Source: a virus
DNA: 39,182 nucleotides
IMG/VR virus record: IMGVR_UViG_3300009593_000046
Span: 1 to 39,182 of that record
Reading direction: 5' to 3' (one strand)
Shown here: piece by piece, positions 813 through 39,182 of the stretch
Position numbering within the stretch: the first letter of the stretch is position 1
Layout of the letters: every line of letters begins with the position of its first letter
The notes under the pieces: model-generated
Told to the model about the DNA's origin: nothing
Seen by the model: only the letters and a program-made list of their open reading frames with translations
Database searches by the model: none
Translations under genes and position numbers: made by a program

Positions 813-1946
813 ATGCCAAAATCCAAAGTAACCAAATTAAAGAAGGGCGCCCTAGACATAGCCTCTATCCGAGGAATCATCAATAAGAAAGCAGGCAGAG
901 AGGTGGCTCATTCACTTCAGGACAGTAATCCAACAGAAGTGAATGAGTGGATACCTACTGGCTCACGGTGGCTTGATGCTATCATTTGTAAAGGCCGCGC
1001 CGCAGGGATCCCCGTCGGCAAGATCTCAGAAATTGCAGGTTTACCAGGAACCGGCAAGTCATTCTTAGCTGCACAAATCGCTGGAAATGCTCAAAAGATG
1101 GGTATTGACGTAGTTTATTTCGATTCAGAGTCTGCTATTGATCCTTCTTTTATGGAACGCGCAGGATGCGACTTGGACAGGCTTATGTATGTTCAGGCAG
1201 CATCTGTTGAGTTTGTTTTGGAAACCATCGAAGAATTGTTAGCTACTGGTAATAAGTGGCTCTTCATTTGGGATTCTCTGGCACTCACTCCATCGATTTC
1301 AGATGTTGAGGGGGACTTCAACCCTCAGTCTTCGATGGCAGTAAAGCCTAGAATCCTAGCTAAGGGAATGTCTAAATTAACTATCCCTATCGCTGATGCA
1401 GATGCTACCTTTCTGGTCCTCAATCAACTGAAGACTAACCTAGGAGCAAGAACACCAGCACAGGCCATGACTGAACCATATACAACTCCAGGTGGAAAGG
1501 CTATGATTTATGCTTATTCCCTTCGTGTGTGGCTCACTGCAAGAAAAGCTAAAGCTAGCTTCATCGTCGACGACAATGGCTTTCGCATTGGGTCTGAAGT
1601 TAAAGTAAAGCTAGAGAAGTCCCGTTTCGGTACTCATGGCCGCACCTGCAACTTCAAAATCCTATGGGGTGACGACTCAGTTGGTGTTCAAGATGAAGAA
1701 AGCTGGTTTGATGCGATCCAAATTTCTGAAAGACTTGAGCAGTCTGGTGCATGGTTTACACTGATTCACAACGATGGGTCGAAGGAAAAGTTCCAGCGCA
1801 AGCAATGGGTCACTAAACTTGAGAGTGAAAAATTTAGAGAAAGTGTCTTGACTATTATTGAAGAAGATGTTATTATGAAGTTCAAGAATAGAGAAGGCAA
1901 AGCAGACGACTTCTACGACGCGGATGACGCCCCGCCGACAGAATAG
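813..1946 (+). CDS. RecA/UvsX-family recombinase
   Basis: A 377-aa strand-exchange ATPase. Walker A is GLPGTGKS at residues 76-83, the catalytic Glu is probably E106 in FDSESA, and Walker B is around 149-156 (LFIWDSLA). The C-terminus is strongly acidic, as in RecA and UvsX, where the tail modulates DNA binding. It follows the SSB by 7 nt and is the last gene before a strong intrinsic terminator, so the two likely form the end of one transcription unit. It could be called RecA or UvsX. The neighbouring gp32-like SSB favours a UvsX-like role in recombination-dependent replication and repair. Confidence 0.88.
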   Translation: MPKSKVTKLKKGALDIASIRGIINKKAGREVAHSLQDSNPTEVNEWIPTGSRWLDAIICKGRAAGIPVGKISEIAGLPGTGKSFLAAQIAGNAQKMGIDVVYFDSESAIDPSFMERAGCDLDRLMYVQAASVEFVLETIEELLATGNKWLFIWDSLALTPSISDVEGDFNPQSSMAVKPRILAKGMSKLTIPIADADATFLVLNQLKTNLGARTPAQAMTEPYTTPGGKAMIYAYSLRVWLTARKAKASFIVDDNGFRIGSEVKVKLEKSRFGTHGRTCNFKILWGDDSVGVQDEESWFDAIQISERLEQSGAWFTLIHNDGSKEKFQRKQWVTKLESEKFRESVLTIIEEDVIMKFKNREGKADDFYDADDAPPTE

Positions 1947-25282: not shown

Positions 25283-26386
25283 TTATACAATCCCGTTTTT
25301 ATTTAGTATTTCGTAAATTTTTCCGGCTAGCAATTTTCTTAAAGCATTATTGCCTACCTGCTTATTTTCTCTACCGTAGTCAGTGTATATAGATAAGATA
25401 TATTCTTCATTGATTACAAATGCCAAGTGAAGTGCTTGATTGTATTTTCTTGTGACGCCACCTTTGCCCCACATTTGCAAAGATCCTCCTCGACCACCAG
25501 ATCTTTTAAATATTTCTCGATTGATAAAATCGAAAGTATCCTTTTCCGGCTGATTAGGTTTTTCAAATTTTGTTCTTAGTCCCTTGGTTAGTGCTTGGAT
25601 TTCATCAAACACTGGTCTTAAAAAAGTATTAATAACGCTGCTCTCAAGAGCCCTTGGATCTATCTCTGGCTCTTTGGGCCGCGGCTCATCTAAGGACATT
25701 CCTGCTTCTTGTTCTCTTGCCTCTAAATCCTTCTTTAACTTTACAAATTCATCATATAAACCAGTTCTAGAAGATTCATCATGGGCTAATTCATCAGCCT
25801 GGTAGATCAAGGACATAAATTTAAAAAAACCTAACGCTGTCTGTCGATTAGGGGCCACCCACTTTCCCTTGCGGGACCCAATTCCCGCGCGACTTCTACA
25901 AATCCCAGGCAATAATTTTTCTAGACCCATGCCTTTTAGAAATTTTTCTTCTTCTTTTCTACTGACAATGCCCAATGAGAGCGACTTATCCGGCACCATC
26001 TGTCCTGTTTTCGGATCCTTTTTCAGCTTAGCTTTTCTTGTATATGATTGTCCCTGTGGACTAGTATAATCACCTCTACATAACGACCTGAATATCTCAT
26101 TCGATGAAGCACTTGACTTATGCTTTCCTCTTAGGGCTAGTTGATAAGCTTTGGAATAATCCAATAACATACTCAGTTCTTTATTTGTTAAGGCCATGCC
26201 TGTTCCTTTAAATTTCCTAAGCTGAGCTAAAGCCATTGGCAATTTTGGCATCGAGGCGCCATAGAAAACCTTTTCTGGATTTTGTTGATCTATTATTTGT
26301 CCGTCAACAGTTCCAAGGACGTAACCAACACTTCCTTTTTTGTATTCTAAATCCTGTCTTTCAATTATCAGTCTTATTTTTTTCAT
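25283..26386 (-). CDS. Serine beta-lactamase/penicillin-binding-protein-fold enzyme
   Basis: A 367-aa protein with the three motifs of penicilloyl serine enzymes in order: S45-M-P-K48 (SxxK, in YGASMPKLPMA), S94-S-N96 (SxN) and K308-G-G310 (KTG-like, in WGKGGVTRKYNQ), followed by a beta strand LAFVINEEYILSI. The long middle region (about 115-300) differs from standard class A enzymes. It may be a D,D-peptidase or peptidoglycan-acting enzyme rather than a drug-resistance enzyme. It overlaps the M15-like gene by 4 nt (ATGA), so two cell-wall-type enzymes are coupled. No signal peptide is seen; the N-terminus is charged. Confidence 0.72.
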   Translation of the reverse strand: MKKIRLIIERQDLEYKKGSVGYVLGTVDGQIIDQQNPEKVFYGASMPKLPMALAQLRKFKGTGMALTNKELSMLLDYSKAYQLALRGKHKSSASSNEIFRSLCRGDYTSPQGQSYTRKAKLKKDPKTGQMVPDKSLSLGIVSRKEEEKFLKGMGLEKLLPGICRSRAGIGSRKGKWVAPNRQTALGFFKFMSLIYQADELAHDESSRTGLYDEFVKLKKDLEAREQEAGMSLDEPRPKEPEIDPRALESSVINTFLRPVFDEIQALTKGLRTKFEKPNQPEKDTFDFINREIFKRSGGRGGSLQMWGKGGVTRKYNQALHLAFVINEEYILSIYTDYGRENKQVGNNALRKLLAGKIYEILNKNGIV

Positions 26387-27558
26387 TTCTTTTTTATCTT
26401 CTTCTTCTTCTTCTTCTTCAACCCGCCGGCTGCACCTTTAGCTAAACTTGTTTCGTCAAATTTATATTTCTCGGCTTGTTCTTTTCGCGCCTTATCGAAA
26501 ATTGCTTTTTGCCATTTATTTTTTGCTTGATCCTTTAAGCCATCGGATAAATACGGTATATAGCTGAGGAACCGATTATTCTTTTTTACAACAGCAAAGT
26601 TTTTATCCCGCTTTTGATACCATTTGAAACCTTTCTCTTCAGGGTCTGTTTTGTTAAAGGGTTTGAGGTGATAATTTAAAATATCTCCACTATAGATCGT
26701 ATCAGAAGCATAGACCCACATGAAATCTGCAGATGATGCAGGTTTCGTATCAATATGTATATTGTTTAGGCCAAATCCAAACCGCGTAAATCCAACTTCC
26801 CCTGCAGCATTTACAACTTTTTCGAGCCACTTCATCTTATCACGCACCTTTTCATTATATAGATCTCTACCCTTTTTGCCTCTGCCCCATTTAATATTTT
26901 TATATTCATCTGGCAACACAATATCGAATGCATTGCCTGCTTTGTGTTGATTGTGTCCTTTAACTTCTTTTGTTTTATCTGAACTTAGGGATCTGCTCGT
27001 CCCGGATCCCCACTCATCAAAAGACGGCCTCGCATGACTTTTGTTGTGAAAGATCAAATTTATAGAATCTACCGTCGGGTCATCATTTAAAATTTTTATC
27101 AACTCTATGAATTTTTCACCTGTTTCTCTTGTACATATAGCAGGCGCGTTTTCCCAAGAGTCATCAAATCCTTGGAGTTTTCCGTATCTAACAACCCACA
27201 TATCATCGGGCCATTTTTGATTACCTGATTGCTTTTTTGGAAAAACTGGGTACTTACCTTTTCCATCTTTTCGAAAAGGGTCATTATCTTTCCCATGTAG
27301 CTCTAACCAATCGTCGTACCTAAAAAATACATCTGTGTTATAGTTGTCATAAAACTGCATATCTTGAAAAGCTTCGCGACTGTCAGGAGATCTGTTGGGT
27401 TCGACTTCCCGCGTGTCTGAGTAATAATCCATCTCCTTTTCGGGATTTTCCGGATCGGGACAATGCTCAAACCTCGGGTCACAATAGCCACGATCATCTT
27501 CTTTCTTTTCTTCGTTTAGGAATTTTCTCCAATTTTCCATTATAAGTTTATGTTTCAT
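26383..27558 (-). CDS. M15-like (D-Ala-D-Ala carboxypeptidase-type) zinc peptidase with capsid-tag-like N-terminus
   Basis: A 391-aa protein. The N-terminus has the tag LIMENWRKFLNE (residues 5-16), shared with neighbouring genes. The M15 zinc motif is visible as H205-K-A-G208-N-A-F-D212 (H-x2-G-x3-D) and the second ligand pair as H268-I-D270. M15 enzymes cut D-Ala peptide bonds in peptidoglycan. The C-terminus is Lys-rich, from an (AAG)7 tract. ATG 27558 is chosen because AAGGAG lies 6 nt upstream; ATG 27564 adds two residues. No secretion signal is seen, so delivery by packaging is inferred. Confidence 0.75.
   Translation of the reverse strand: MKHKLIMENWRKFLNEEKKEDDRGYCDPRFEHCPDPENPEKEMDYYSDTREVEPNRSPDSREAFQDMQFYDNYNTDVFFRYDDWLELHGKDNDPFRKDGKGKYPVFPKKQSGNQKWPDDMWVVRYGKLQGFDDSWENAPAICTRETGEKFIELIKILNDDPTVDSINLIFHNKSHARPSFDEWGSGTSRSLSSDKTKEVKGHNQHKAGNAFDIVLPDEYKNIKWGRGKKGRDLYNEKVRDKMKWLEKVVNAAGEVGFTRFGFGLNNIHIDTKPASSADFMWVYASDTIYSGDILNYHLKPFNKTDPEEKGFKWYQKRDKNFAVVKKNNRFLSYIPYLSDGLKDQAKNKWQKAIFDKARKEQAEKYKFDETSLAKGAAGGLKKKKKKKIKKK
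26398..26418. repeat. (CTT)7 microsatellite coding a poly-lysine tail
   Basis: Seven CTT units on the plus strand read as seven AAG codons on the minus strand, giving Lys7-Ile-Lys3 at the C-terminus of the M15-like protein. Slippage would change the tail length without shifting frame. Confidence 0.85.
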
Positions 27559-27579
27559 TTCCATCTCCTTTGAATAGTC

Positions 27580-28707
27580 TTACCAAGAACCACTAGCACC
27601 GCCACCTCCGAATTTTTCCCCTTCGGAATTTCCCCACCAGTCTTTGAATCTATCAAATAAGCCGCGACCACCAGAGCCATCTGGCTCTACTGTATCGGGT
27701 ACTTGGGTTTTTGTCCTTTCCTCGCAACCTTGCGGGTGAACCGGGTCTCCATTTTTTAGTTTTGCACAAGGCAAATTCCCTCTTGCATATTTTAATATTG
27801 CCTTTTTCCACTCAGGTAACCGCTCTATTAAGTCTCTTTTTGAGTCTACTCTTTGCATATACTTTTCAGCATCTTTGGGGTCTTCCGCCCCGGACGCTTT
27901 TTTTAGAAGATGAATCACTTGTCTTTCGCTCCGAGCTTTGATCATTTCTATTCTTTCGTCGAGGATTTCTTCGAAAGTTGTTTTTGTAATTCTCGCTCTT
28001 TCATAGTAACCTCTCGCGTGGCCCTTGATTTCTCTAGGTGCAAAATAATATTTGGCATCTTTCTCTACTGTTATGAGAGTTCCCATGATTCGCGTATCCC
28101 TAGCATGTTGAAATTCATGAGCAAGCGCCTCTCTTAATTCTTCCCTTACCAGGGGTAGTCTGCGAAGAAGATCGCCTTTTGTTTTTATATAATTAGTATT
28201 TATATTTAAATCAACATACAAGAAATTGTTCTCGGGCCTGATCTCCTCCATATCCGGATCTTCGGCGTTTTTATATATATTTTCCTTAGAAGAGAATCCA
28301 GCTTCGATACCAATTTGTTTCTCATCGGGCTGAGCATTCCAAGACCTAAAATCGAGCGATAATCTAAATGCCTCAATCGGGACAATACCTTTAGGGGTCT
28401 TGGACTTTAGTTTACCGCGTCTATGGATTACCCCCCCGGTATATTTTTCAGGTATACCATTACACCACCCACTACATTCTTTTCTGGTTGGAAAGTCCTT
28501 TCCAAGATTTTGAACCCAAAGATCATATTTAATTTTATATGCTTGTCTTAGCGGTTCTTCATTTTCGGCATCTTTCATTCCAGACTTTATAAGAATCATA
28601 ATTATTTTTGTCCATTCTGTAATTAGATTTCTTGTCATGGTCTCTGTCACTAAGAGTCCTTGGTGATAGTTTTTCCAATTTTCCATTATAAGTTGATGGT
28701 TTGACAT
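27580..28707 (-). CDS. HExxH zinc metalloprotein with capsid-tag-like N-terminus
   Basis: A 375-aa protein. The tag LIMENWKNYHQG opens the protein (residues 6-17). The zincin motif H197-E-F-Q-H201 lies in LREALAHEFQHARDT; a third ligand is probably a Glu or His in PREIKGHARGYYERA downstream. The C-terminus ends in a Gly-rich tail (FGGGGASGSW). The substrate is unknown. It sits between another HExxH gene and the M15-like gene in one minus-strand run, so a set of peptidases seems likely. Confidence 0.75.
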   Translation of the reverse strand: MSNHQLIMENWKNYHQGLLVTETMTRNLITEWTKIIMILIKSGMKDAENEEPLRQAYKIKYDLWVQNLGKDFPTRKECSGWCNGIPEKYTGGVIHRRGKLKSKTPKGIVPIEAFRLSLDFRSWNAQPDEKQIGIEAGFSSKENIYKNAEDPDMEEIRPENNFLYVDLNINTNYIKTKGDLLRRLPLVREELREALAHEFQHARDTRIMGTLITVEKDAKYYFAPREIKGHARGYYERARITKTTFEEILDERIEMIKARSERQVIHLLKKASGAEDPKDAEKYMQRVDSKRDLIERLPEWKKAILKYARGNLPCAKLKNGDPVHPQGCEERTKTQVPDTVEPDGSGGRGLFDRFKDWWGNSEGEKFGGGGASGSW

Positions 28708-28714
28708 TGATTCT

Positions 28715-30007
28715 TTATTTCCCTTGTTGCCCCGCGGCGTCTTCTACTTTTTTACGTATAGCTTGTTTTTCGGAATGGTAATTCCATCCAGGTTTTTCAG
28801 AATCTTCAAGCTGTTTTACAGCTTGTCTTCTAAACATCATTACTGATTCCTCTAATCTTGGTATTAAATACATTCTTATTTTTTTCTTGACTCTTCGAAG
28901 GTCTGTTGGCGTCACCGCGCCTCTTTGTTGATTTTTACTCCACCAAACAGATAATATTTTTTCTAATTTCGAATAAACCCTTGCTTTTAGCCATCGGTCC
29001 ACCTTGCTTGTAAACTTGGCAGTGTCTCTTCTGGCTATCCTTTCACCCTTATTCTCCCATGGCATCATATGCGAATGATATCGCTCAGTGTCTTTTTCCG
29101 GATCCAATTCCAAGAGGCCGTAGATAAAACTATTCGAATATCTACCTTTCTTTTCATTGGCCCATTTTTCGTTCGTCACGGCGTGACTACATTCGTGCAC
29201 GACAAGTATACTAACTATCGTGGCGCATAAATCTTCGAAAGGTTTTGTTAGAGCATTTTCTAATTCTTTTATTGAATTTGGTTCGAAAACCATTCCCTGT
29301 GCTCCTGTGAAGAGTCCTAAGGTTCTAGTCAATATTCTGTCTAAGTTTTCTGTGATTTGCTGAACAAACCGCCGCGACAAAGCAATTTTATGAACTTGGA
29401 TATCTCTCACTGCGTCAGCATATTTTTCGAATTTGAAATTCACCGCAGCGCGTTTCTTCCTGGAACATGCGGGCTTCGAAGCGCGCCTCGTCCATGGGTG
29501 ACTCCGATCGCTTCTACAATCGAAAGCAGAATCTAACCACTTGTCGAAAGTATTATTACCATTGCTCCTCGCCGCGGAAACTGATTCGGTCTCCGCCGAT
29601 CCTATATCTATACCTCCGAGTATAAACTTTATAGGCTTTTTGACCTTTGCTCTCTCTCGATAGGCCATCTGGATTGCTCTGGTAATAATTCTTTTCTTAT
29701 TAAATCTTATTTCCAAATCAGTGTCCTGCGCCGGACCATATTGTATATCTTCTTTGTCCCACGGTATTCTAATATTCGCTCTCTTAGCTGCCTCAATATT
29801 GTATTGACACAAATCAGAGTCCCTGCATCCCGGATTTTCATTGCAAATATCTAAGTTATGTTGTATGCCCCGTTTCGTTATAGTTGATAAGAAGCTTACA
29901 TCACTGTCAGGGTGTGTAGCTCCTTTTGGACATTCTTTCGTGGATCCAAGTTCTTCTTTTAAAGCTCTCCTCCAGGTCTCCATTATGGTTTTGAAATCAT
30001 TTTTCAT
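28715..30007 (-). CDS. HExxH zinc metalloprotein with capsid-tag-like N-terminus
   Basis: A 430-aa protein. The N-terminal tag is a divergent form, TIMETWRRALKEELG (about residues 7-21), and includes L-K-E. The zincin motif is H271-E-C-S-H275 in SILVVHECSHAVT. A Cys-rich region spans residues 26-67 and a basic region about 170-190. ATG 30007 has GGAG 8 nt upstream, within the preceding 22-codon ORF. The gene differs in sequence from the neighbouring HExxH gene, so the two are not recent duplicates. The substrate is unknown. Confidence 0.75.
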   Translation of the reverse strand: MKNDFKTIMETWRRALKEELGSTKECPKGATHPDSDVSFLSTITKRGIQHNLDICNENPGCRDSDLCQYNIEAAKRANIRIPWDKEDIQYGPAQDTDLEIRFNKKRIITRAIQMAYRERAKVKKPIKFILGGIDIGSAETESVSAARSNGNNTFDKWLDSAFDCRSDRSHPWTRRASKPACSRKKRAAVNFKFEKYADAVRDIQVHKIALSRRFVQQITENLDRILTRTLGLFTGAQGMVFEPNSIKELENALTKPFEDLCATIVSILVVHECSHAVTNEKWANEKKGRYSNSFIYGLLELDPEKDTERYHSHMMPWENKGERIARRDTAKFTSKVDRWLKARVYSKLEKILSVWWSKNQQRGAVTPTDLRRVKKKIRMYLIPRLEESVMMFRRQAVKQLEDSEKPGWNYHSEKQAIRKKVEDAAGQQGK

Positions 30008-33939: not shown

Positions 33940-34201
33940 GGATTGGATAGGCGTAATACTAGCTTTTAAAGACCATCAAAATGCCAACCCTCGATCAGAA
34001 CGGGCATTAGTACAAATCCAACCAGGCACCAAATTTGAAAACTTTTTCAAAACAAAGGTTTCCGAAAAAGAAAGAGTAAATGATAGTTTGGGGTGGATTA
34101 CAAGTAATTGGCTTTACAAAATAGAGGTCATCAATGCAAAAATTAGACTTACACGGAACGAGACACCACCAAGCGGACGAAAAAATAAGAAGATTCCTTA
34201 A
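33869..34201 (+). CDS. SH3/KOW-like small protein, VGDLV family member
   Basis: A 110-aa protein with KDLRVGDLVTHVLYGRDWIGVILAF at its N-terminal third, an outlier of the MKVGDLV family described from 36.7 kb onward. It has a longer C-terminal extension that is basic and Pro-rich. It overlaps the membrane protein gene upstream and the Smr gene downstream in other frames. Confidence 0.65.
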   Translation: MGQGKSKIKDLRVGDLVTHVLYGRDWIGVILAFKDHQNANPRSERALVQIQPGTKFENFFKTKVSEKERVNDSLGWITSNWLYKIEVINAKIRLTRNETPPSGRKNKKIP

Positions 34202-34352
34202 TTTTGTTCTACTGCCTTGTGAAATAATTACAGGAAACTCACCAACCATGAAAAGCATTGTAAGAAAAGTCATTCAAGAATACGGCTGGCACTCTTACGA
34301 AAAGGACACCTACAACTCAGGCACACTCGTAGTGATAGAAAAAAATACTTGA
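34134..34352 (+). CDS. Smr-domain protein
   Basis: A 72-aa stand-alone Smr domain. LDLHG (residues 4-8), a helix with the ADEKIRRFL stretch, IITGNSPTM (about 32-40), then a C-terminal strand TLVVIE follow the family. Smr domains bind or nick nucleic acids, the HG and TG-x(G/S) loops forming the active site. It overlaps the preceding gene by 68 nt in another frame, with AGAGGT before the ATG. Alternatively it binds without cutting. Confidence 0.75.
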   Translation: MQKLDLHGTRHHQADEKIRRFLNFVLLPCEIITGNSPTMKSIVRKVIQEYGWHSYEKDTYNSGTLVVIEKNT

Positions 34353-34378
34353 CATATTAGTTTGAATTATGTTATTAT
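34349..34378 (+). promoter_or_regulatory. Promoter, predicted leaderless
   Basis: TTGACA at 34349-34354, an 18-nt spacer and TATTAT at 34373-34378, followed by 6 nt (TAAATA) and ATG 34385. No Shine-Dalgarno is present before this ATG. Confidence 0.65.
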
Positions 34379-34384
34379 TAAATA

Positions 34385-34585
34385 ATGGTAAATGAAGAAC
34401 AATTAGAACTAGGCGATGTGGTGGTCATCTTGGATGATATGCTTCATCCAACGAAGATTAAAGGAGTAATTACATCTGTGTTCACAAATGCTTATAATGT
34501 GATTGTTTCTAATGGATTAAACAAGGGTGAGAATAAAAAAATAAATTCTCTAAATTTAAGAAAGGTTGAAAACCATGGTTTTTGA
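34385..34585 (+). CDS. SH3/KOW-like small protein
   Basis: A 66-aa protein beginning MVNEEQLELGDVVVILDD. The LGDVV start and the later KGVITSVF strand match the small-barrel family of this region. There is no upstream Shine-Dalgarno; the promoter -10 is 6 nt away, so it is probably translated from a leaderless mRNA. Confidence 0.7.
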   Translation: MVNEEQLELGDVVVILDDMLHPTKIKGVITSVFTNAYNVIVSNGLNKGENKKINSLNLRKVENHGF

Positions 34586-34847
34586 AAAGAAAAGAAAAGG
34601 TCGATACATACAAACAACAATCCGAGATGAGAATCATGAATCTGTTTTCCACGAGATTGATAACCTAGATACGAAGTCCCTCGATCATGCTGAAGATGAA
34701 TACGAGAAGGTGTTTGTTGTAGTACGTCAAGCTTTGGAGACAAACGAGCAATTCTGTTGTGATAGTGAGGAAGATAGGCTGTCGCTAGCCCAAATTATCT
34801 CAGACAATCTAAAAAATAACAGACTTATCAGGAGAAGTGAAAAGTGA
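34575..34847 (+). CDS. Small hypothetical protein
   Basis: A 90-aa charged protein from ATG 34575 (AAAGG 9 nt upstream; TTG 34566 is an alternative). It is acidic and helical with no recognised motif. Its start overlaps the previous gene and its stop overlaps the next by 4 nt (GTGA). Confidence 0.6.
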   Translation: MVFEKKRKGRYIQTTIRDENHESVFHEIDNLDTKSLDHAEDEYEKVFVVVRQALETNEQFCCDSEEDRLSLAQIISDNLKNNRLIRRSEK

Positions 34848-35092
34848 AAAGAGGAGAAACAGTCAGATGCATAGTAGATTACGATTTATTTGATCTAAAC
34901 ATAAAAGGAAAAGAGGGGTGTTTAGTAAAGGAAGACGAAAAAACAGGAAAATTCCTAGTCCATTTTCCAGAAAACGGAGAGTGGGCAGAGCTACGTAGAG
35001 AACAATTTGAACCTGTAAACGCACCGGGTTACATTCCAGAAAAAAACAAAAAATTTGTAAAAAACGTAAAAACTTTAGAGTATACATATTAA
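34844..35092 (+). CDS. SH3/KOW-like small protein
   Basis: An 82-aa protein opening MKRGETVRCIVDYD, close in plan to the MKVGDLV family, with a beta-strand pattern (KGKEGCLVKEDEKTGKFLVHF) typical of a KOW/SH3-like barrel and a longer C-terminus. It starts in a GTGA overlap. Confidence 0.7.
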   Translation: MKRGETVRCIVDYDLFDLNIKGKEGCLVKEDEKTGKFLVHFPENGEWAELRREQFEPVNAPGYIPEKNKKFVKNVKTLEYTY

Positions 35093-35101
35093 GGACTAAG
35101 G

Positions 35102-35371
35102 ATGAAGTATCTTATAATTTTTATAATTTTAACAATATCTTGCGCAGATAATTTTAATTCGAATCACGAAAGCATCCCATCACATGCTGGGGAGGTTTGG
35201 ATATGTCACAACCCACAATCAGAATATCATGGTCATATATGTTCAGACGAGTGTTATTGGGTCGGTCAGTTATTGGTAAAAAATTCTTATTGCTGGGTTT
35301 TAGAAGAAGAGGATTGTACCCCGCCTTTGACGTATGGGTGGCAAGATCAAAACTGTCATTTTTTTAATTGA
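35102..35371 (+). CDS. Small Cys-rich lipoprotein
   Basis: An 89-aa protein with signal peptide and lipobox LTISC (lipidated C14), followed by a Cys-rich mature part with seven Cys, likely disulphide-bonded outside the cytoplasm. It may block superinfection, as small phage lipoproteins can, but that is inference. The next promoter overlaps its stop. Confidence 0.72.
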   Translation: MKYLIIFIILTISCADNFNSNHESIPSHAGEVWICHNPQSEYHGHICSDECYWVGQLLVKNSYCWVLEEEDCTPPLTYGWQDQNCHFFN

Positions 35372-35396
35372 CTAAAATATTAATACAAAGTATAAT
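35368..35396 (+). promoter_or_regulatory. Promoter for uvsE
   Basis: TTGACT at 35368-35373, a 17-nt spacer and TATAAT at 35391-35396. A leader of about 20 nt with GAGGA precedes ATG 35423. Confidence 0.8.
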
Positions 35397-35422
35397 TAAC
35401 AGATAATCAAAAAAGAGGAACC

Positions 35423-36370
35423 ATGAACTACGGATATGCTTGCATTAATGTGACCCTATCTGATGTGCCTAGATCTAAGCGCATCACAACCAATCGCACG
35501 ATGATTAAAAGAACATTTAAAGAGAAGGGAATCAAATATGCGTCTGAACTGGCATTACAGAACGTCCTAGATTTGGAAAAGATTCTCAAGTGGAACGAAA
35601 ATAACGACATTAAGTTCTATCGTATGTCTTCTGACATCTTTCCATGGGCCTCAGAATACGAGTTTGACGCTCTGCCGAACATTAGAGTGATAAGAAGGGT
35701 ACTAGCTAGGGCTGGACTATACGCGGTCAACAACGGCCATCGACTTACGTTTCATCCTGGTCCTTTTTGTTGCCTTGCTTCGCCCAACGACGGAGTGGTA
35801 GAGAAAACATACAAGGAACTCAACAATCACTCTAGAATATTCGACATGATGGGGTTCTTTCCTAGTCACTACAACAAGATTAACATCCACGTCGGCGGCA
35901 CATACGGAGACAAGGATGAAACAATAAAACGTTTCATCCAGAACTTCCACAAACCTGGCGGACTTGATGAAAACACCAAGAAGCGCTTCACGCTAGAGAA
36001 CGACGACAAAGCTAGCATGTGGAGCACAAAGGAGATTTATGAAAAAATTCATCACAAAACTGGAATCCCGATTGTTTTCGATTACCATCACCATCGATTC
36101 TGCACCGGAGGACTCACAGAAGAAGAAGCAGTCAAGCTCGCAGCCTCAACCTGGCCTAGCGGAATCACTCCCGTTGTTCACGTCTCGGAGTCGAGAGCTA
36201 TTGAACAAGGCGACCCAAAAATTCGCAAACAAGCTCATTCAGATTTTATCCAAAGGCCAGTAGATAATCATGGGCAAAGGCATGACATTATGCTGGAATG
36301 TAAAAAGAAAGAAAAAGCACTACTAAGACTCAGGAGTCAGTTAAGTGAAGTCAAAAGACGTAAAGTGTAA
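35423..36370 (+). CDS. uvsE: UV damage endonuclease (UvsE/UVDE)
   Basis: A 315-aa TIM-barrel nuclease that nicks 5' of UV lesions. Metal-site motifs are seen in order: LTFHPGPFC, NIHVGGTYGDK, LENDD, FDYHHHRF, HVSESR and HDIMLECK, matching UVDE. It has its own strong promoter. The last 26 nt overlap the next gene in another frame. It would support DNA repair during infection, typical for sunlit-water phages. Confidence 0.9.
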   Translation: MNYGYACINVTLSDVPRSKRITTNRTMIKRTFKEKGIKYASELALQNVLDLEKILKWNENNDIKFYRMSSDIFPWASEYEFDALPNIRVIRRVLARAGLYAVNNGHRLTFHPGPFCCLASPNDGVVEKTYKELNNHSRIFDMMGFFPSHYNKINIHVGGTYGDKDETIKRFIQNFHKPGGLDENTKKRFTLENDDKASMWSTKEIYEKIHHKTGIPIVFDYHHHRFCTGGLTEEEAVKLAASTWPSGITPVVHVSESRAIEQGDPKIRKQAHSDFIQRPVDNHGQRHDIMLECKKKEKALLRLRSQLSEVKRRKV

Positions 36371-36548
36371 TAAAACATACTGGTCTACTCGTTTTAATCG
36401 AAAATGTGTTTGCAAAGGTATCGCAAGATGGCTTATAGAACTTGAATTTCAAGATTCAAAAAAGAATGGCTGGTATCATTGTCAAGAGATAGAAGAAGTA
36501 CCAAGATCACAAGAAAAAGTTATTGACGTTACAAACATAATAGGGTAA
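36345..36548 (+). CDS. Small Cys-containing protein
   Basis: A 67-aa protein from GTG 36345, overlapping the end of uvsE by 26 nt; AGGAG is upstream. The middle (GIARWLIELEFQDSKKNGW) has the strand layout of the small-barrel family, and the last residues overlap the next promoter. No function is known. Confidence 0.6.
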   Translation: MKSKDVKCNKTYWSTRFNRKCVCKGIARWLIELEFQDSKKNGWYHCQEIEEVPRSQEKVIDVTNIIG

Positions 36549-36551
36549 TAT
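36523..36551 (+). promoter_or_regulatory. Promoter, predicted leaderless
   Basis: TTGACG at 36523-36528, a 17-nt spacer and TAATAT at 36546-36551, then ATTAAT and ATG 36558. The six bases between -10 and ATG are the same as at 31235-31240. Confidence 0.65.
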
Positions 36552-36557
36552 ATTAAT

Positions 36558-36725
36558 ATGGTTGAAGTTTTAATAGCAGCGGCAGTTATTCTATTTATTC
36601 GCAACCGAGTCAAACATGCACACTATCAGCGCCAGAAAGAAGAATTTTGGCGTGAAGTAATTCGTCGTGTTGATCAGCAGAAAAAGATTGATGCACTTTA
36701 TGGAAGGGGCAAACATGATGATTAA
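36558..36725 (+). CDS. Small single-pass membrane protein
   Basis: A 55-aa protein beginning MVEVLIAAAVILFIRNRV, one N-terminal TM segment followed by a charged helix. It lies at the leaderless promoter and has no Shine-Dalgarno. It overlaps the next gene start. Confidence 0.6.
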   Translation: MVEVLIAAAVILFIRNRVKHAHYQRQKEEFWREVIRRVDQQKKIDALYGRGKHDD

Positions 36726-36882
36726 AGAAGGTGACTTTGTACAATACCGCTCAGCACAGGGCGAGGTGATGGGCTATGGTATCATTGTGGAGATAACCGA
36801 ATACTGGCACATCCTTGTAGACCAACACACAGGCAAGCGAGAGCATTGGTCAGAAGATCTGATGGTGCAGATTGTACCGTGA
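36715..36882 (+). CDS. VGDLV-family SH3-like small protein
   Basis: A 55-aa protein with IKEGDFVQYRSAQGEV, the family's N-terminal strand-turn. ATG 36715 or 36718 follows GGAAGGGG. The stop overlaps the next GTG (GTGA). Confidence 0.7.
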   Translation: MMIKEGDFVQYRSAQGEVMGYGIIVEITEYWHILVDQHTGKREHWSEDLMVQIVP

Positions 36883-37073
36883 AAGTTGGAAATATTGTAG
36901 AAATCCAACCGCACATTGACTTTGATATAACAAAGACTGTCTTTACGGAGACATCAGTCGGTATGATCAAGAGTAGATTAAATGGAGATGGTTACTATGA
37001 TGTTCTGCTTTGTAACGGCAAAGTATTATTCATTTCGGGACGCAACCTAAAGGTAATCAATGAAAGTCGGTGA
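36879..37073 (+). CDS. VGDLV-family SH3-like small protein
   Basis: A 64-aa protein starting at GTG 36879 (VKVGNIVEIQP), C-terminus INESR. Its stop lies inside the first copy of the 14-bp junction repeat. Confidence 0.72.
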   Translation: MKVGNIVEIQPHIDFDITKTVFTETSVGMIKSRLNGDGYYDVLLCNGKVLFISGRNLKVINESR

Positions 37074-37248
37074 TCTAGTGAGAAACGGCCAAGGACACAT
37101 AGGTATTGTGATGGGCATTGGCTATGCAGGTAATTGTCAGAGTTATGAACAAACCCCCTTCTTGAACCCAGACATTCATGTTGTCACAGCACACGGCAAG
37201 CGTCTATGGAGCTACAAAGCGCTGGAGACTATCAGTGAAAGTCGGTGA
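37060..37248 (+). CDS. VGDLV-family SH3-like small protein
   Basis: A 62-aa protein, MKVGDLVRNGQGHIG to TISESR. It starts with ATGAAAGTCGGTGA, which holds the previous gene's stop, and ends in the same repeat that starts the next gene. Confidence 0.8.
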   Translation: MKVGDLVRNGQGHIGIVMGIGYAGNCQSYEQTPFLNPDIHVVTAHGKRLWSYKALETISESR

Positions 37249-37405
37249 CTTAGTCGAGTTCAAGGGTCACATTGGTATCCTATCGGAAATCAGAGCTAAC
37301 CAATATCCGCCTTACCGACCTTGGTACAGAATACGCTGGCAAAGCAAAAAAGGGTTCGCCTGGGTCATAAATCCACCACAAGACTGTCCAATAAAAAAGC
37401 TATAA
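37235..37405 (+). CDS. VGDLV-family SH3-like small protein
   Basis: A 56-aa protein from GTG 37235, MKVGDLVEFKGHIGILSEI to PIKKL. It begins in the junction repeat with GGAG 7 nt upstream, but its own C-terminus lacks SESR and ends before a promoter, so it closes this sub-array. Confidence 0.75.
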   Translation: MKVGDLVEFKGHIGILSEIRANQYPPYRPWYRIRWQSKKGFAWVINPPQDCPIKKL

Positions 37406-37410
37406 AACAC

Positions 37411-37439
37411 TTGACTTTCAACGACCTACCTGATATACT
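37411..37439 (+). promoter_or_regulatory. Promoter for the second part of the small-gene array
   Basis: TTGACT at 37411-37416, a 17-nt spacer and TATACT at 37434-37439. A leader of about 20 nt with GTGGAGAAG precedes ATG 37467. Confidence 0.75.
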
Positions 37440-37466
37440 TATAGTACAGAGAAGTGGAGAAGTTAA

Positions 37467-37670
37467 ATGAAAGTCGGTGACTTGGTAAAGTACGCAGAGT
37501 TTCCTCACAAAGAATTAAGTGAAACTTCCCTGGTGGGCCTTGTTGTAGAAATAGAAACCTTTCTTTATTTAGAAAAAGTTCACGTAAGATGGAACTCACC
37601 GCGCCCCCAAGGAGAAAAACTGCTATGGGAATACATCGACGAGTTGGAGATAATCAGTGAAAGTCGGTGA
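37467..37670 (+). CDS. VGDLV-family SH3-like small protein
   Basis: A 67-aa protein, MKVGDLVKYAEF to ELEIISESR. It is the first gene after the promoter. Codons for L-E near the end contain GGAG, positioned as the Shine-Dalgarno for the next gene. Confidence 0.8.
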   Translation: MKVGDLVKYAEFPHKELSETSLVGLVVEIETFLYLEKVHVRWNSPRPQGEKLLWEYIDELEIISESR

Positions 37671-37848
37671 TTTAGTAAGACATTCTATGTATTCAAGTGA
37701 AATGCCAGCCTCTATTGTGCTTAAAATCCGCTACAATTATGATGAACGAAGGCGTTCGAGAAGAATACCACAGATCTTGATCCTTGAGAAAGGTGATGTC
37801 TATTGGGATCGGATATGCGATTACGAGGTGGTTAGTGAAAGTCGGTGA
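37657..37848 (+). CDS. VGDLV-family SH3-like small protein
   Basis: A 63-aa protein from GTG 37657, MKVGDLVRHSMY to YEVVSESR. It is Arg-rich in the middle (DERRRSRR). It overlaps both neighbours by the 14-bp repeat. Confidence 0.8.
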   Translation: MKVGDLVRHSMYSSEMPASIVLKIRYNYDERRRSRRIPQILILEKGDVYWDRICDYEVVSESR

Positions 37849-38155
37849 TCGAGTCTGGAGTTGGATGAATGAGCATATTTATGTAACCGTGTTTGTCCTG
37901 GCCCTCATCACTGACTTTTGGGCGAATTGGTACAGTTATGCTATTGTTCACGACTGGATTGTGCTTCAGGCGTTTTTAGGTATGGCTTTGCCTTTCTTGA
38001 ATCTGCCCGGTATCTTGTTTTTTATAGATAGAAAAGACATGAAGGTACGTCTCAAGCTCTGCGCTGTCACTGCGGTTGCCATGTCGCTTGGTTCAACCTT
38101 AATGCTTCTCATGCTCAGGGCAGGAATAGGAGTTGGAGAGGATATGATACCATGA
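37835..38155 (+). CDS. Chimeric membrane protein with a VGD-type start
   Basis: A 106-aa protein from GTG 37835. Only the first six or seven residues (MKVGDRV) match the family. The rest holds three TM segments (about 13-35, 42-64 and 75-98). It starts in the junction repeat and lacks the SESR end, stopping at MIP in an ATGA overlap. It appears that a membrane-protein gene has been attached to the array's start module. Confidence 0.72.
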   Translation: MKVGDRVWSWMNEHIYVTVFVLALITDFWANWYSYAIVHDWIVLQAFLGMALPFLNLPGILFFIDRKDMKVRLKLCAVTAVAMSLGSTLMLLMLRAGIGVGEDMIP

Positions 38156-38331
38156 AAATCGGTGACTTAGTGAGATTCAAGGTGCATCATTACCATAAAT
38201 CATATGGCGTTGGTATTATACTAGAGGAATTTTATTCCGCGAGAGTTGGCAACCGACATTGGGCGTGGTTTAACGGCGAACATGTAATGGTCAGGCTTGA
38301 TGAATTGGAGCTTGTAAGTGAAAGTCGGTGA
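38152..38331 (+). CDS. VGDLV-family SH3-like small protein
   Basis: A 59-aa protein, MKIGDLVRFKVHHYH to ELELVSESR, from an ATG that overlaps the membrane gene's stop (ATGA). The start repeat has one change (ATGAAAATCGGTGA). Confidence 0.8.
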   Translation: MKIGDLVRFKVHHYHKSYGVGIILEEFYSARVGNRHWAWFNGEHVMVRLDELELVSESR

Positions 38332-38518
38332 TCTGGTAAGATTGTCTCGTGGCGTGGGCAATCATTTTAATCTCAAAAGTTATGTTGCTCTCTTGATCAA
38401 GAAGCGCCCAAGAGTCGATTCTTATGAGTATGACTGGATCGTTCTGACGGATGGTAGGTACATTGCACTAGGTAGACAGATAGAAATGAGTGCGGAGTTA
38501 ATCAGTGAAAGTCGGTGA
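38318..38518 (+). CDS. VGDLV-family SH3-like small protein
   Basis: A 66-aa protein from GTG 38318, MKVGDLVRLSRG to AELISESR, overlapping both neighbours by the 14-bp repeat. GGAG 7-8 nt upstream lies in the previous gene's last codons. Confidence 0.8.
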   Translation: MKVGDLVRLSRGVGNHFNLKSYVALLIKKRPRVDSYEYDWIVLTDGRYIALGRQIEMSAELISESR

Positions 38519-38687
38519 CTTGGTAAGATGGCGGAGTGACGGCGACACAGGTATTGTGCTGTCTGTGAGAAAAGGTTCACTCATCGGTGGTGACAGCGTG
38601 GTGTATGTCATGTGGTTTGAGGGCCCACCTACGGGCCCACTCCCAGATGACCATGAAGAACTGGAGTTGGTAAGTGAAAGTCGGTGA
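38505..38687 (+). CDS. VGDLV-family SH3-like small protein
   Basis: A 60-aa protein from GTG 38505, MKVGDLVRWRSDGDTGIVL to ELELVSESR. TGIVLSV followed by a W-containing strand fits a KOW/SH3-like barrel. Confidence 0.8.
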   Translation: MKVGDLVRWRSDGDTGIVLSVRKGSLIGGDSVVYVMWFEGPPTGPLPDDHEELELVSESR

Positions 38688-38868
38688 TTTAGTAAAAGAG
38701 ACCTGGGGGATGGAAAGAGCCGGTATTATCTTTGCAGAGGTTCCTCGCCCACCGTCATCTCGCAGGAGATTGTTCAAAGTCTTATGGGATACGCACTCTC
38801 CAACGCTACCCACCTTGATAGGTCCACTATGGGAATCACAAGCGGAGGTTATCAATGAAGGTAGGTGA
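38674..38868 (+). CDS. VGDLV-family SH3-like small protein
   Basis: A 64-aa protein from GTG 38674, MKVGDLVKETWG to EVINEGR. The last codons already carry the changed form of the repeat (ATGAAGGTAGGTGA). Confidence 0.8.
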   Translation: MKVGDLVKETWGMERAGIIFAEVPRPPSSRRRLFKVLWDTHSPTLPTLIGPLWESQAEVINEGR

Positions 38869-39055
38869 TGTTGTAAGGTGGACACCTATGGAAACGGCAT
38901 ACCATCACGCCTGTCTTGCTCCTGGCATTACAGACTTGACAGATGATAGAAAATGTGGTATTATCGTAGATAGAAATCCTAAATACTTTTTTGTATTATG
39001 GCAAAACAAAGAACTTTTAGCACAACTACCAAACACAATCGAGGTAATCAAATGA
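38855..39055 (+). CDS. VGDLV-family SH3-like small protein
   Basis: A 66-aa protein, MKVGDVVRWTPME to IEVIK. GGAGG is upstream in the previous gene. It is the last family member seen; its stop overlaps the lipoprotein ATG (ATGA) and a promoter lies inside it. Confidence 0.78.
   Translation: MKVGDVVRWTPMETAYHHACLAPGITDLTDDRKCGIIVDRNPKYFFVLWQNKELLAQLPNTIEVIK
38936..38964 (+). promoter_or_regulatory. Candidate internal promoter for the 3' lipoprotein
   Basis: TTGACA at 38936-38941, a 17-nt spacer and TATTAT at 38959-38964, inside the last small-gene ORF and about 90 nt before ATG 39052. Confidence 0.5.
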
Positions 39056-39182
39056 AAAAATTAATGTTGTCAACACTTTTCCTTTTAGTTGCAGGTTGTA
39101 TCGAAGCACCAGAACGAGCAGAATATAAATACGCATCCGAAGAAGCATGGGATCACTGTTATGATAGTTGCCCTGGTTCTGA
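39052..39182 (+). CDS. Lipoprotein, 3'-truncated by the window
   Basis: The first 43 codons of a lipoprotein: MKKLMLSTLFLLVAGC, with lipobox LVAGC (lipidated C16), then an acidic start with two Cys. The rest is outside the window, so family and length are unknown. Confidence 0.75.
   Translation, partial: MKKLMLSTLFLLVAGCIEAPERAEYKYASEEAWDHCYDSCPGS

Follow-up and report, generated by a model that had tools for sequence, protein, structure and literature searches.

The DNA analysed here raises the question of why a row of very small phage genes should carry one short sequence at nearly every gene border, and whether that sequence serves translation, the encoded proteins or the exchange of the genes themselves. 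The stretch, referred to below as the window, is the complete 39,182-base IMG/VR virus record IMGVR_UViG_3300009593_000046; since it encodes UvsX, ribonucleotide reductase, DNA polymerase and GroEL, it is likely to be a piece of a large tailed-phage genome. A compact plus-strand array of small genes spans positions 36718–39055 of the window, with its first junction at 36879; an initial inspection of the letters (the sequence-only reading) had placed this array at 37060–38868, which is too small. We consider it quite probable that the 14-nt module repeated at the gene borders is the heart of a linker that would let recombination add, delete or swap whole units while the expression signals of the neighbours stay intact.

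The module, RTGAAAGTCGGTGA, was found without mismatches at 37060, 37235, 37467, 37657, 37835, 38318, 38505 and 38674, with one mismatch at 38152 and with two at 38855; all ten copies lie on the plus strand at gene starts. Chance was ruled out as the origin of the repeat, as the window holds 10 copies with up to two mismatches against 0.46 expected, and none of 100 shuffled sequences reached 10. Analysis of both reading frames confirmed that one 14-mer acts as stop and start at once: the downstream frame gives MKVGD and the upstream frame gives S-E-S-R-stop in the GTG copies, N-E-S-R-stop in the ATG copies and N-E-G-R-stop in the last copy. In eight of the ten copies the bases double as the end of the gene before, in a shifted frame (AGT or AAT, GAA, AGT, CGG, TGA); the remaining two provide only a start, at 37467 (with a 61-nt gap upstream) and at 38152 (with a 4-nt ATGA overlap). 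The Shine-Dalgarno (SD) motif GGAG, expected from the sequence-only reading ahead of each start, is present 7 nt upstream at 37235, 37467, 37657, 38318, 38505, 38674 and 38855, but is weaker or shifted at 37060, 37835 and 38152. The module is the core of a coding linker of about 34 nt, TGGAGGTNATCA-RTGAAAGTCGGTGA-TYTRGTAAR, which contains the SD of the downstream gene, embedded in the final sense codons of the upstream one, together with the downstream start and, in the shifted frame, the upstream stop. In some genomes a second dialect ranks first or nearly first in frequency: RTGCAAGTCGGTGA, which has the upstream tail ASR and was seen in L305, L313 and L315 (L-numbers are the labels of the related loci and contigs compared; nearly all of the data are metagenomic contigs).

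Alignment at the nucleotide level revealed that the gene interiors are unconserved. In 571 distinct 14-nt overlap junctions the core carries 1.471 bits/nt, compared with 0.056 at positions −60 to −31 and +45 to +89, and the mean pairwise nucleotide identity of the 11 units of the window is 0.92 in the core, 0.28 in gene interiors and 0.25 upstream. Upstream of the core the sequence GGAGGTNATCA is prominent, with the SD GGAGGT at −11 to −6; the wobble position −8 is G in 85% and the wobble position −5 is free. The constraint on the core exceeds the demands of both reading frames, because GTC is favoured over GTA at Val3 (321:62), though the C-to-A change is silent in both (Val in one, CGG/AGG Arg in the other), and no such preference exists in gene interiors (GTC:GTA 963:827; CGG:AGG 252:473; GTC in 33/436 at Val7). 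For the codon counts at Val3, loci were fetched via flanking genes only, which avoids the bias of a 14-mer search. Strong homogenisation of the module within genomes was set aside, as the effect is slight (0.875 within one genome, 0.856 between genomes); the module is therefore shared evenly by the whole pool rather than specific to individual phages.

Comparison of related contigs revealed that neither the order nor the number of the genes is kept. Apart from one 176-bp unit, contigs L132 and L134 match at 99.3–100% over about 19 kb, and the break lies inside a shared 20-nt repeat, ATGAAAGTCGGTGATTTGGT, with both neighbours intact. Similarly, a single 176-bp unit, at the module, separates L159 from L160, which share 14.6 kb at 99.99% identity. 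These single-unit indels, the direction of which (gain or loss) is unpolarised, bear out the proposal that a whole gene can come or go at the repeat without damage to its neighbours. In other pairs the unit order differs after 13.5 kb shared at 98.4%, with homology ending at junctions (L159/L161); a unit and a DUF2061 gene are exchanged, with the break at junctions (L148/L203); a unit is replaced from the module onward (L066/L361); or a unit is lost via an exchange in the SD part of the linker (L311/L339). Altogether, the junction was the site of six of nine independent close-pair differences.

The same shuffling was observed across many lineages. For units that are 70–99% identical between different lineages, the neighbour is kept in 4–10% of cases, compared with 76–93% for ordinary genes, the pairs being non-independent. 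In 95 unit pairs of at least 85% nucleotide identity, identity falls at the module from about 0.9 to about 0.3, on both sides. In L152 and L156, which are relatives of the window, the flanking genes are mostly collinear and the homologues of the units occur in other orders. These comparisons support the recombination reading originally drawn from the repeat pattern: of the two outcomes named with it as refuting, a constant gene order and number in relatives and interiors as conserved as the junction, neither was observed.

Foreign genes have been captured with the linker at both ends. A gene at L105:8663–8932 encodes a GIY-YIG domain (PF01541, 5.4e-14, residues 8–82) between an MQVGEKV N-terminus and an INASR* end; both of its ends carry the CAA form of the module, the second with a TAG stop. 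The gene L148:3332–3532 encodes a DUF2061 protein (PF09834, 9.5e-8, residues 8–58), with MKVGDT in front and DESR* behind. A second DUF2061-like membrane-protein cargo gene is located at about 4596–4800 of L148 and is absent from the near-identical L203. In the window, the gene at 37835–38155 (plus strand, 106 aa) has the module at its front (N-terminus MKVGDRVW) and is not a paralogue of the array units, its interior being unrelated to the family; its very hydrophobic product is probably a membrane protein.

The shared C-terminus of the units had been interpreted as a by-product of the nucleic-acid module rather than a protein feature, and this holds for the most part. The Glu of the LEVI motif, whose codon belongs to the SD, is present in 81% of genes with an overlapping successor and in 33–34% of those without a coupled successor; its GAG:GAA ratio is 655:31 in coupled genes (95%), 46:61 in uncoupled ones (43%) and 692:813 in gene interiors. 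The ESR tail likewise tracks the downstream junction, dropping from 63–73% in coupled to 2–19% in uncoupled genes (R alone, 63% vs 2%). The hydrophobic positions, on the other hand, persist in uncoupled genes (L in 58–64%, V/L/I at the following positions), and these L, V and I positions are a protein feature: in the AlphaFold model of the unit 38505–38687 (pLDDT 90, five strands) the L-x-V-I residues form strand five, the last of the barrel.

Among the top structure matches to this model were Tudor, CAP-Gly, Spt5 and NusG KOW barrels, with weak E-values, and a profile match of the family to an Spt5 chain reached 5.6e-5. On these predictions the units are KOW/SH3-like barrels of 55–70 aa, drawn from a very diverse pool, with a putative role that may plausibly be that of host-takeover or anti-defence accessories. 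Pfam and PHROG scans of 70 members gave only single, scattered weak hits, with nothing credible and no named family; a SlyD-like match of L167:11844 was dismissed as probably due to chance. The best viral structure matches in BFVD include the near-consecutive accessions A0A516M7xx, A0A516MB5x-8x and A0A516LBZx, which suggests paralogue arrays in deposited virus genomes that are uncharacterised.

As every unit starts and ends with the same linker, any two linkers, whether in one genome or in co-infecting phages, could exchange whole units; recombination between them would add, delete or swap one or more units, and both neighbours would retain their frame, stop, start and ribosome-binding site. 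Judging from the sequence, homologous or annealing recombination is the likeliest route, which the phage's own recombination/replication system might provide: a UvsX-like recombinase is encoded in 31 of the 36 records scanned, and that of the window (813–1946, plus strand; phrog_97, E 1.8e-58) is a candidate for this function. Termination-reinitiation would couple the translation of successive units, and the uniformity of the linker might reflect selection for a shuffle-safe, expression-ready sequence together with recombinational spread of its commonest version. It is in this sense that we infer translational coupling and junctions that are "self-propagating".

Several observations weigh against this proposal. 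The exact 14-mer is present at 271 of the 571 junctions, so that about half carry a variant. Exact repeats between the modules of one contig do not exceed 18 nt in 95% of cases and 24 nt in 99%, a length below what is usually considered necessary for efficient RecA-type recombination, so that the proposal has to assume rare events, annealing or template switching. Three of the nine close-pair differences, in or near arrays, lie off the module (L333/L337, L329/L330 and L308/L309). Finally, the metagenomic origin of the contigs means that individual differences may in some cases stem from assembly choices, although repeats this short are not expected to mislead the usual assemblers. In the L329/L330 pair, the 216-bp stretch L330:3188–3404, missing in L329, holds a small open reading frame and a tRNA-like sequence.

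A purely translational role of the module has a real chance of being correct, though the odds are somewhat against it. The module would then be an optimal termination-reinitiation signal (extended SD GGAGGTGATCA, A-rich start region, short back-step), and shuffling a side effect of any repeat. The strong GAG bias in the SD of the upstream gene, seen only where a gene follows, agrees with such a role, as do start-only copies such as that at 37467; GGAGGTNATCA also corresponds to an extended complement of the 3' end of 16S rRNA. However, no translation signal is obvious in the preference for GTC over GTA, a change that is silent in both frames, and starts outside overlaps are more variable (in the class "other", GTC accounts for 70/126 Val codons, and GGT is found in 94/401 cases). 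Moreover, a translational function is compatible with shuffling, and both can act together. Further from a simple exchange point, we regard as rather doubtful an integrase-free, virus-wide cassette system in which the linker would be both expression signal and recombination site, possibly with a dedicated cutting or annealing enzyme, and in which the arrays of many large phages would be near-random draws from a shared mini-gene pool with foreign genes captured in working form. It is improbable that a dedicated site-specific system, i.e. a phage or host nuclease, nickase or recombinase recognising the 14-mer, moves the units like integron cassettes, even though the units are cassette-like, are bounded by a short asymmetric site, have one orientation within a genome and are accompanied by captured cargo, in one array a GIY-YIG protein. 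None of the 36 records, which may be fragments, encodes a tyrosine recombinase (PF00589) above the cut-off, nor was a resolvase/serine recombinase found in them. The breakpoints fall within a 20–40-nt homologous stretch, also in its SD part (L311/L339), which fits homology and not one cut site, and the sequence of the asymmetric module is largely accounted for by the two reading frames.

Joining of different viruses at the repeat by short-read assemblers is very improbable. Although the key comparisons all involve metagenomic contigs, exact repeats within a contig are no longer than 24 nt in 99% of unit pairs, flanks of 5–14 kb on the same contigs are 98–100% identical, the pattern recurs in hundreds of contigs, and a three-copy array lies inside a 2.85-Mb contig of a bacterial metagenome-assembled genome (MAG). 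Simple tandem duplication, by which the array would be young and made of recent copies, could account for the start, fold and orientation common to all units, but is refuted by the divergence of the interiors and retains practically no credibility: detectable interior homology of unit pairs is as rare within genomes as between them (0.0017 vs 0.0015), while the core in the window is 0.92 identical, and recognisable interior homology was found in 28 of 16,820 within-locus unit pairs, none of them listed for the window.

The linker is widely distributed in viral DNA. The 19-mer TGAAAGTCGGTGAYYTRGT was found in at least 120 stretches of viral contigs, and the exact 14-mer occurs in up to 17 copies per record, always on one strand within a record (50 records among the matches listed); a reversed control pattern gave no match in those 50 records. 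In 309 loci totalling 4.45 Mb, a profile built from the array genes identified 2,224 units, which fall in 225 of the loci, a count that is possibly too high, as nine hits of this hidden Markov model (HMM) lie on the minority strand and some loci of the same contig overlap. Prokaryote genomes totalling 257 Gb contained the 19-mer in 88 stretches, mostly as a single copy; about ten of them contain several family units and may be virus-derived. The array in the bacterial MAG contig mentioned above (L442; CP070664.1, WOR-3), with three exact modules, possibly represents a prophage or a misbinned virus. Isolate phages yielded no match to the array at the DNA level, and single-sequence tblastn gave only chance-level hits.

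Within the window, the array comprises eleven plus-strand units and the cargo gene. Unit 1 (36718–36882; MIKEGDFVQY..., 54 aa) matches the family HMM and has relatives in L156 and L152 at 83–88%; it shares the four bases GTGA with unit 2 at 36879. Unit 2 (36879–37073; MKVGNIVEIQPH...) has a GTG start, the degenerate module GTGAAAGTTGGAAA and the C-terminus NESR*, and the exact module ATGAAAGTCGGTGA at 37060–37073 supplies its stop and the start of unit 3 (37060–37248, 62 aa; relatives at 82–84% in L152, L156 and L159). The exact module at 37235–37248, in its GTG form, opens unit 4 (37235–37405, 56 aa), which is without the ESR tail and is followed by the only non-coding gap of the array (37406–37466). 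This 61-nt gap contains a promoter-like, TG-extended sequence, TTGACT-17-TATACT (37411–37439); in the region 34000–39182 promoter-like sites are not enriched over shuffles (12 vs 12.8), and terminator-like sites number 2 against 3.2 expected, with none at a junction. The start-only exact module at 37467–37480 has no overlapping stop, the upstream gene ending at 37405, and opens unit 5 (37467–37670, 67 aa; C-terminus IISESR*). The next two sequence matches are exact modules at 37657–37670, opening unit 6 (37657–37848, 63 aa; C-terminus VVSESR*), and at 37835–37848, where unit 6 stops and the cargo gene starts. After the ATGA overlap, unit 7 (38152–38331, 59 aa) begins with the one-mismatch module ATGAAAATCGGTGA. 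Further exact modules were identified at 38318–38331, 38505–38518 and 38674–38687, which open unit 8 (38318–38518, 66 aa; relatives at 80–83% in L152, L137, L156 and L161, at other positions), unit 9 (38505–38687, 60 aa; the modelled barrel) and unit 10 (38674–38868, 64 aa; C-terminus NEGR*), respectively. The two-mismatch module ATGAAGGTAGGTGA at 38855–38868 opens unit 11 (38855–39055, 66 aa), which keeps the SD codons in an EVIK* end, has no ESR tail, overlaps the next gene by 4 nt and has a 98% relative in L239.

Other parts of the window differ from its relatives as well. Four minus-strand genes at 25283–30007 (367, 393, 375 and 430 aa) look like an insertion, because the homologues of the flanking genes adjoin each other in L152 and L156; two of the four were scanned against PHROGs, with no match. 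The gene at 35423–36370, which we take to encode a UV-damage endonuclease, is placed differently relative to the genes at 34385–35092 in L152 and L156, i.e. the flank of the array has also been rearranged.

Several known systems resemble the array in part. In T4-type phages the promoter early stem-loop (PeSL), an intergenic promoter with a terminator-like stem-loop, is reportedly a cassette repeated at the boundaries of small accessory genes and thought to mediate their shuffling by homologous recombination. The array shares the shuffling of small accessory genes at a short boundary repeat, but its linker encodes protein on both sides and contains an SD, a start and a stop, and intergenic DNA is missing from most junctions, with neither an excess of early promoters nor a stem-loop or terminator at the junctions. 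Integron cassettes also form one-orientation arrays of small genes that have a shared bounding site and are drawn from a large pool; here, in contrast, no integrase exceeded the cut-off in the 36 (possibly fragmentary) records, the genes overlap without an intergenic attC, and the exchange looks homology-driven. In lambdoid phages, short conserved boundary or linker sequences at gene borders are points of recombination; they differ from border to border, whereas one linker serves nearly all borders of the array, so that any order is possible.

Cluster K mycobacteriophages carry, mostly in one orientation, the 13-bp asymmetric SAS/ESAS repeat GGGATAGGAGCCC at gene starts, which precedes genes of different families and is suspected of a role in translation start (PMC3203893). 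SAS lies upstream of the start, comprises neither a start codon nor a stop and has no dual reading frame; the conserved block of the array, GGAGGTNATCA-RTGAAAGTCGGTGA, includes the start codon and is not of the GGGATAGGAGCCC type. In Campylobacter group II phages, gene-enclosing repeat units with the 13-nt core AAACTTAAAGCAA vary in number between close relatives, for which recombination has been proposed, but these repeats are mostly extragenic, direct and inverted, and link large modules (PMC4546147). No description of the system, and nothing else of relevance, emerged from the literature searched, either for the peptide MKVGDLV or for coding linkers of this type. The linker of the array is a relative of the T4 PeSL cassettes and the mycobacteriophage SAS that is coding and probably couples translation, and it is set apart by having SD, start and stop combined in a single exchange point whose two sides are both coding. 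Together with the Campylobacter repeat regions, these are its closest known counterparts.

If the proposed role of the linker is correct, a conserved protein terminus would owe its existence mostly to a nucleic-acid module, and dual-frame coding would itself provide the recombination site for modular evolution. The old question of phage mosaicism at gene borders becomes directly testable in these arrays, and the linker can be used in practice as a probe for small proteins of a large family that is absent from Pfam and PHROGs. Large phages would thus possess a mechanism for renewing their hypervariable banks of tiny genes without breaking operons.

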